DNA of 64,000 nucleotides from Rhodopseudomonas boonkerdii (lineage in GTDB: Bacteria; Pseudomonadota; Alphaproteobacteria; Rhizobiales; Xanthobacteraceae): positions 3,472,001-3,536,000 of the forward strand of contig NZ_CP036537.1 of NCBI RefSeq assembly GCF_021184025.1. Reading direction: 5' to 3'. A program made the position numbers and the translations under genes. Below the pieces are notes generated by a model. The model saw only the letters and a list, made by a program, of their open reading frames with translations. It was not told the origin of the DNA and made no database searches. Below, piece by piece: positions 19,983 through 20,921 of the stretch. Positions within the stretch are counted from its first letter, which is position 1; the number at the start of each line of letters is the position of its first letter.

Positions 19983-20238
19983 GCAATGCTCCCGTATGAC
20001 GATTGAGTTCTCGCGTGCGCACGCCTCTGCCGTTGGCTCACGCTCGCCATTCGTCGATCATGCTTGCGGGATTGGGGATGACGGGATAGGACGTCGCACG
20101 ACGATTGAGCAATGCAGGCAAGTGACATCCACATCACTCGCAACTGCCGCATTCTCGGCAAACGCGCCCCCCTCATCGACATCGCGTTCGAGTAGAACTC
20201 CATCGGAGTTTCGATTAGCGTGAAGCTGACCATCGCCT

Positions 20239-20288
20239 ACCCTCCCCTGCAGGGGGAGGGTCGCTCGCGCAGCGAGCGGGGTGGGGTG
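20239..20288 (+). repeat. Left palindromic repeat of the DUF559 cassette
   Basis: Two adjoining hairpins: ACCCTCCCC/GGGGAGGGT around TGCA (20239-20261, one unpaired G), then CGCTCGC/GCGAGCG around GCA (20262-20278). They are followed by GGGGTGGGGTG. The same three modules recur in reverse order and orientation at 20715-20768. Confidence 0.85.
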
Positions 20289-20304
20289 AACGCAGTCGAG
20301 GGAC

Positions 20305-20730
20305 GTGCAATGGTTACGTCGTCACTCCGTCGCGCAGCCGCAAAGAGACTCCGCAGCAATGCGGACACCGCATGAGCGTATCCTGTGGCGTGTGCTGAAA
20401 GAGCTTTCGTTGGAGGGCACGCATTTCCGACGCCAGGCTCCGATCGGTCCTTCTGTCGTCGATTTCCTTTGTCCAGCCACACGCCTCATCGTCGAACCCG
20501 ACGGCGGTCATCGCAACGAAGACGAGCAAGCTCGCCGCGACGTGCGGCGGCAGCGATGGCTGGAAACAGAAGGCTATCGTGTCCTTCGGTTCTGGAACGA
20601 CATCGACAACGAGCTGCCATCCGTGCTCGAACGCATCTATATCGAACTGCACGGCGGACGCGACGTGGCGTCTGCGCCGATGAAACATCGCCGTCGTGTA
20701 TGGGGCAAGTCGGCCACCCCACCCCGATGA
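20305..20730 (+). CDS. DUF559 protein (Vsr-like PD-(D/E)XK nuclease fold)
   Basis: Up to 141 residues from GTG at 20305; an ATG at 20359 gives 123. The family core is clear: 'MRTPHERILWRVLKELSLEG', 'HFRRQAPIGPSVVDFLC', 'LIVEPDGGHRNEDEQARRD', 'RWLETEGYRVLRFWNDI'. DUF559 is related to very-short-patch-repair endonucleases; the usual 'E-L-D-G-G-x-H' appears here as 'E-P-D-G-G-H', keeping the acidic residues but with proline and a shifted histidine, so activity is uncertain. The stop lies inside the right flanking repeat. No partner methylase or other nuclease gene is adjacent. Confidence 0.85.
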   Translation: MQWLRRHSVAQPQRDSAAMRTPHERILWRVLKELSLEGTHFRRQAPIGPSVVDFLCPATRLIVEPDGGHRNEDEQARRDVRRQRWLETEGYRVLRFWNDIDNELPSVLERIYIELHGGRDVASAPMKHRRRVWGKSATPPR

Positions 20731-20768
20731 ACGCTGCGCGTTCATCGACCCTCCCCCTGCAGGGGAGC
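20715..20768 (-). repeat. Right palindromic repeat of the DUF559 cassette
   Basis: CACCCCACCCC is followed by a 10-bp stem CGATGAACGC/GCGTTCATCG (20725-20747) and then ACCCTCCCC-type sequence with CTGCAGGGGAG. It is the inverted counterpart of 20239-20288, with a different but equally palindromic middle module, as expected for compensatory divergence of a hairpin. Confidence 0.8.
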
Positions 20769-20921
20769 GCTATTTGCCCATGCTGCGATCCACAACTTCA
20801 CGATATCGAGATCGCCGCTGCGTGCATTGCTGCGTCCTGCGTGGCGCCTTTGCGCTGCAACTGCGAACATGGCACTCCGTCTTATATCGCGCCGCAATAT
20901 TTCCGCGCAGGAGAATGCCAA

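Follow-up and report, generated by a model that had tools for sequence, protein, structure and literature searches.

Why should a small nuclease gene be enclosed by two inverted copies of the same palindrome? The question is posed by a ~600 bp unit of Rhodopseudomonas boonkerdii, located in a 64,000-nt stretch of contig NZ_CP036537.1 (forward strand, positions 3,472,001 to 3,536,000) that we call the window and to which coordinates refer unless stated otherwise. The unit is flanked by a TetR gene on one side and an MFS transporter gene on the other, and encloses a 141-codon open reading frame (ORF; 20305–20730, + strand) for a PD-(D/E)XK nuclease-like protein of the DUF559 family (PF04480; 97.2 bits against a cut-off of 20.6). 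Genome comparison leads us to regard it as probably a mobile (selfish) cassette, that is, a homing-type, nuclease-driven element with non-autonomous doublets. In the genome carrying the window, a single contig of 5.63 Mb, there are three DUF559 matches and six strictly defined palindromic elements.

An earlier note, made from the letters of this DNA, had claimed that both borders contain the same modules in inverted order, that the gene's stop codon falls inside the right repeat, and that the middle hairpins differ in sequence yet pair. Indeed, the borders share two perfect inverted matches, of 22 nt (20242–20263 and 20746–20767) and 12 nt (20277–20288 and 20715–20726). From outside to inside, each consists of a pyrimidine arm (CCCTCCCC), a pairing purine arm, a variable hairpin and, as third module, a G-rich tract (GGGGTGGGG) in which the purine arm is mirrored. 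On the left (+ strand), sequence and inverted-match search place hairpin 1 (CCCTCCCC-loop-GGGGAGGG) at 20240–20260; the variable hairpin occupies 20263–20277 (stem 20263–20268/20272–20277, consistent with covariation across the class), and the third module, in the geometry test described below a triplex-type third strand, 20278–20286. On the right (− strand), the third module (CCCCACCCC on the + strand) spans 20717–20725, the variable hairpin 20725–20747 (stem 20725–20734/20738–20747), and hairpin 1 (CCCTCCCC-loop-GGGGAG) 20749–20767. Both palindromes thus ordered face inward toward the ORF, whose stop codon (20728–20730) does lie within the right variable hairpin, and the two middle hairpins are both paired while unlike in sequence. 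In the window, the core words CCCTCCCC, GGGGAGGG, GGGTGGGG and CCCCACCC are confined to these two borders, and an Rfam scan at gathering thresholds returned no match.

Matching ends recur around short DUF559 genes. We assembled 129 DUF559 loci of the same order, a non-random set of best-scoring and hand-picked loci among the matches listed, with 27 of a long type (DUF559 C-terminal in a protein of ~400 aa or more) and 102 short ones, three of which had too little flank. Each was scored by comparing the 300 nt on either side of the DUF559 domain for their best inverted match. Scores of 14, 16 and 20 were reached by 85, 80 and 67 of the 99 short loci, respectively; among the long loci, 1/27 reached 14 and 0/27 reached 16, and control windows shifted along the same loci did so in 5/545 and 0/545 cases. 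Counted by genus, 41/44 had one or more loci scoring at least 16 (38/44 counting the first locus alone). Neighbouring genes, used as further controls, had an inverted flank match of 14 in 0/189 cases, and with the shifted windows this excludes a chance origin of the matching ends. As flanks swapped between loci reached 16 in just 12.2% of 1000 draws, the match between left and right end is specific to the individual cassette. This general test replaced a strict element finder (both ends found in 35/87 rows first ruled short and 4/43 ruled long) after the first short/long rule had mistyped some rows. The long type was seen as a second kind of DUF559 gene that seems to occur about once per genome (L003, L101, L103, L213–L236; loci are numbered L, genomes G).

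Beyond the order, a scan of named genomes from many phyla yielded 517 confirmed DUF559 matches (more exist), of which the best 80 were taken; 77 had enough flank, and one (L328) was dropped since its match ran through a stretch of N. Scores of 14 and 16 were obtained for 58/76 and 53/76 of these loci, vs. 3/403 and 0/403 control windows, and loci at 14 include Chloroflexi, Gastranaerophilales, Desulfobacterales, Mariprofundus, Pseudoxanthomonas and Sphingomonadaceae. A plasmid collection contributed 39 records with a DUF559 match; under a slightly different flank rule, 6/8 plasmids had an inverted match of at least 16, and cassettes with matching ends sat within operons (paaD-DUF559-paaZ in Deinococcus; between transhydrogenase genes in Sphingomonas). 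One further record of that collection was an E. coli chromosome rather than a plasmid. The supposition that the borders are non-randomly placed relative to DUF559 genes is hence borne out (85/99 and 58/76 loci vs. 0/189 neighbouring genes). Both ends faced inward in 51/79 classified order loci and 25/53 classified named loci and outward in 1/79 and 6/53, respectively, the remainder being mixed or unclassed. Outward-facing palindromes were noted around the cassettes at L316, L325, L335, L338, L353, L378 and L418, and at L417 and L419, where the left end alone was seen.

Gene and ends also evolve together, as the earlier note had surmised. Across 79 loci from 40 genera, end similarity rose with nuclease similarity between genera (rho 0.242; 0/2000 permutations as high). 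In 74 contrasts (not all independent), a cassette's ends were set against those of its nearest nuclease in another genus and against those of a different cassette sharing its genome; 66 favoured the nearest nuclease, three tied and five went the opposite way, so gene and ends co-evolve. In 43 genera represented by one genome each, with DUF559 and element counts read by hand among the matches listed, element count followed short-DUF559 count (Spearman 0.76; 0.72 given RAYT).

These data bear on the idea that RAYTs (HUH tyrosine transposases) or some other transposase move the palindromes, with DUF559 genes riding as passengers between two of them. RAYTs do move REP-like doublets elsewhere, and RAYT count taken alone correlates with element count (Spearman 0.35; Fisher p 0.007). 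However, the partial correlation drops to 0.05 once DUF559 is allowed for, 79 of 101 genomes searched with a Y1_Tnp profile, including that of the window, gave no match, nuclease and ends are cognate-specific, and the neighbouring genes lack the inverted flank match altogether. We consider such a passenger role unlikely.

The class tends to be conserved in structure rather than in the letters of its middle hairpin. In 85 distinct middle segments, found by a loose pattern and with stem length measured starting at the fixed outer G-C pair, the mean perfect stem was 3.87 bp vs. 1.45 in shuffles (highest shuffle mean 1.66); 38/85 had a stem of at least 5 bp, and each stem position formed Watson–Crick pairs in 60–79% of cases, with several pair types. 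The pairing of dissimilar middle hairpins thus holds as a trend across the class. The third module mirrored the purine arm (match of at least 0.85) in 66/102 testable arms vs. 6.7% of shuffles, 158 arms having been reduced by eight without a hairpin and 48 without room. In geometry, the ends correspond to known intrastrand-triplex repeats, and a triplex fits them better than a G-quadruplex: many carry four G-runs, but a strict G3 quadruplex is not conserved, because one subfamily (ACCTCTCCCC...GGGGAGAGGT) has two Gs in its second run.

Intrastrand-triplex repeats have been described in E. coli MG1655, with 23 copies including five inverted pairs (TMECO repeats; Holder et al. 2015, PMC4666352, cited here from part of its text) and the consensus CCCTCNCCC-N3-6-GGGNGAGGG-N3-GGGNGAGGG; the paper reports them as not associated with transposons, phages or plasmids, and neither DUF559 nor words beginning 'nuclease' appear in it ('endonuclease' was not searched). 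According to the coordinates given there, TMECO no. 9 (E. coli positions 1,351,204–1,351,239) falls in the spacer that separates fabI from ycjD (L383, K-12), the DUF559 gene of this species, to whose literature a PD-(D/E)XK survey belongs (PMC1189080). ycjD is a one-sided case without a matching pair of ends (inverted match 8). A sapF-ycjD-fabI query was kept to at least 80% in 3333/5426 E. coli genomes, and 2093/5426 lacked 80% cover in one place; in three of the latter that were opened, an efflux operon stands beside sapF, ruling these out as a clean empty site.

Presence of the cassette varies between relatives. BLAST shows the two flanks joined directly at 20196|20798 in the close relative G013, where the unit (20197–20797, the right edge uncertain by some nt) is absent from the orthologous site; G009 lacks a larger stretch, and G011 has the cassette. 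As a tree of two other loci places G013 and G009 nearer to the window's genome than G011, presence is patchy, and the alternative that the earlier note had set against its proposal, a locus fixed in all relatives with no empty sites, does not apply. The unit starts directly behind the stop codon of a GAF-GGDEF-like gene (the name is our reading), most of which is gone in the window's genome; its 3′-end remnant occupies 20130–20196 (+ strand), and the gene is intact at the same place in G013 and G011.

A second position, site A (the L084 locus), holds a cassette of ~500–540 bp directly behind a stop codon in 5/18 genus genomes, a truncated cassette in 1/18 and a spacer of about 63–85 bp instead in 12/18. 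Since this spacer is recognisably alike in distant empty genomes (by eye; least in the divergent G004), the empty state is likely ancestral, and the cassette likely replaced about 60–85 bp of spacer. The flanks of G001 match those of sister genomes right up to the junction, and presence requires at least five changes on the 18-genome tree (truncated copy scored as present). With clade-test groups that were picked after the identities had been seen, cassette sequences (in some rows extended into the adjoining sequence by up to some 27 nt) place G006 together with G011, and G001+G011 is rejected (p 0.009). This conflicts with the flanks of the locus, on which G001 pairs with G011, and G006+G011 (p 0.005) and G001+G003 (p 0.002) are both rejected. 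The conflict points to lateral exchange into one exact position, which would represent either repeated insertion or allele exchange with very short tracts; such spread to one fixed place resembles homing. At site B, 3/17 located genomes (G013, G015, G017) have a cassette and G011 a doublet. At the window locus and both sites, the cassette is intergenic, outside any intron, intein or coding gene.

Ends also occur without the gene, mostly as inward doublets like REPINs, in keeping with the REP-like arrangement suggested earlier. A pattern search blind to DUF559 gave 30 element loci in 26 chosen genomes, mostly picked for showing element matches. Of the 28 re-found, 16 rows were in inward pairs (two pairs or loci being counted from both members), none was outward-only and 12 were solo. 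In 15/16 inward rows the partner lay ≤200 bp away, and the exception, a wider pair, has between its members a DUF559 gene that is broken across two frames; DUF559 was near 4/30 rows, representing three distinct loci. Stretches opened in the window's genome contain short inward doublets without an ORF (L065, L066, L067), elements around the second short DUF559 gene (L069) and a lone element 1.1 kb from a long-type DUF559 gene (L068). In other genera, pairs ~450 bp apart enclose DUF559 (L070, L072 and L073, the last having an additional element), and short doublets are found at L071, L074, L075, L077 and L078; L076 shows a different, outward order, and G070 has mixed element arrays.

One spacer, between the binding-protein and permease genes of an ABC transporter (nitrate-type in our reading; L066:3142–3229, L384–L398), holds an inverted-repeat element in all 15 genus genomes located of the 18 searched (by eye). 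The elements are of about five kinds, and the spacer is possibly a hot spot or under selection for an mRNA hairpin. Spacers at L386, L394, L395 and at L273 and L282 also hold other palindromic elements, of the GTCGTCCCCGCGAA... and GTCATTGCGAG... kinds.

What, then, might the nuclease do? For the ORF between the ends, Pfam named DUF559 and the related MTES_1575, and no known transposase (DDE or other). The fold of the DUF559 protein resembles those of the homing endonuclease I-Bth0305I and of Vsr (structure-sequence matches above E 0.01 were taken as chance), a PADLOC homing-endonuclease match was weak (E 3e-4), and a PHROGs search gave nothing below E 0.02. Residue 70 is Arg in the window's copy and His in nearly all relatives; given this substitution and the few elements in the genome, the window's own cassette is probably no longer active and may be a relic.

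DUF559 could alternatively be a Vsr-like host repair gene, with the palindromes selected at intergenic ends as terminators or as hairpins that stabilise mRNA. The ratio of non-synonymous to synonymous substitution rates (dN/dS) of 0.08–0.25, cassettes retained at the same site in several species and the fully occupied ABC-transporter spacer agree with this, as do two papers: one hundred CCCTCTCCC/GGGAGAGGG hairpins in Enterobacter sp. 638 are presumed terminators by their authors (PMC2869309), and VsrA of Caulobacter, a DUF559 protein, is connected with cytosine methylation (PMC12907096). A host gene with local hairpins is nonetheless quite improbable in our view, as paired palindromes are missing from all 189 neighbouring genes, presence is patchy with conflicting cassette and flank trees, and the ends differ between cassettes of one genome and track nuclease type. 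That doublets are merely the homing site, into which a nuclease gene without ends of its own jumps, would account for the shared geometry of doublets and cassettes and for the doublet of G011 at site B, but is very unlikely, given cassette-less sequences at the window locus (G013) and site A that contain no such palindrome.

Several observations weigh against a mobile nuclease cassette. A matching pair at a score of 14 is missing from 14/99 order loci and 18/76 named loci. One of these is L001, the other short DUF559 gene in the genome carrying the window, which scores 11, although the element finder sets inward-facing elements on both its sides. Nor do the ends always face inward; three of the four neighbouring pairs listed for G079 are outward. 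G009 (nine elements) and G034 (five) carry elements without a short DUF559, and the unadjusted RAYT correlation belongs here as well. Conservation of DUF559 (dN/dS as above, with dS near or above 1) allows for host use; host selection for hairpins could favour repeated occupation of a spacer without homing and may explain part of it at some spacers. The choice of clade-test groups counts on the same side. Inspection by eye of the window/G013 junction and of site A showed no target duplication, for which the earlier note had proposed to look. Lastly, we infer cassette movement and nuclease cleavage from comparison.

On balance we still favour the mobile cassette. Comparison among genomes shows the pairing of gene and ends, its generality, their co-evolution, lateral movement into the same intergenic point, and doublets composed of ends alone. 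The palindrome-bounded cassette of the earlier note is accordingly retained in its non-random borders, patchy locus, co-evolution and doublets, with no target duplication seen at the two junctions read by eye; mobilisation by the nuclease is our deduction. In the mechanism we propose, a small DUF559 nuclease encoded between two inverted copies of its own three-module palindrome would bind or cut cognate palindromes and/or target spacers, the break or nick would be repaired by copying the cassette, with replacement of some spacer as in homing, and doublets would be non-autonomous copies mobilised in trans. Somewhat less confidently, though still leaning towards it, we suggest a bacteria-wide class of mobile elements in which a lone PD-(D/E)XK homing-type nuclease with triplex ends, without a transposase, disperses triplex repeats in many phyla (as non-autonomous relics) by homing-like spacer replacement.

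Literature searches pairing DUF559 with palindromic repeats found no paper on such a link, which, judging by these searches, is unpublished. No general function has been established for the widespread DUF559 family, and linking it to palindromic repeats gives both a testable role. A gene and its palindromes travelling as one cassette may explain the spread of a puzzling class of bacterial repeats and, if true, would provide a nuclease-only, homing-like route for palindrome multiplication beside that of REPIN-RAYT.

How does the cassette compare with known systems? It differs from insertion sequences and miniature inverted-repeat transposable elements in that no known transposase matches the ORF between its ends, and from Vsr in its palindromic context and its score with the NCBIfam vsr model (12.2 bits against a cut-off of 97.85). 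With I-Bth0305I-type homing endonucleases, Vsr-like nucleases also named 'EDxHD', it shares the type of nuclease fold; unlike them, it was outside introns, inteins and coding genes at the three sites read, has its own inverted ends and occurs in gene-less copies. The lateral gain at site A would agree with cleavage of an empty allele, as expected of a homing endonuclease. Like TMECO repeats, its ends combine a pyrimidine arm, a purine arm and a G-rich third strand mirroring the latter, form inverted pairs and are intergenic. Unlike these repeats, they are tied to DUF559, in this clade often have the second loop enlarged to a covarying hairpin, and in the window depart from the TMECO consensus, reading GGGGAGGG/GGGGTGGGG with a long hairpin loop.

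The closest parallel in arrangement is offered by RAYT systems, in which a gene is accompanied by inverted palindromes, doublets are dispersed and the types of both match. Here, too, a gene is flanked by inverted palindromes, inverted doublets are dispersed, and gene type matches palindrome type. REPINs feature a GTAG or GGAG head tetranucleotide that is read by the transposase, and the tetranucleotide GGAG is present within GGGGAGGG. In contrast to REPIN-RAYT, the window's genome has no Y1_Tnp match, the palindrome is a three-module, triplex-type repeat, and the enzyme of the cassette is a PD-(D/E)XK nuclease in place of an HUH tyrosine transposase.
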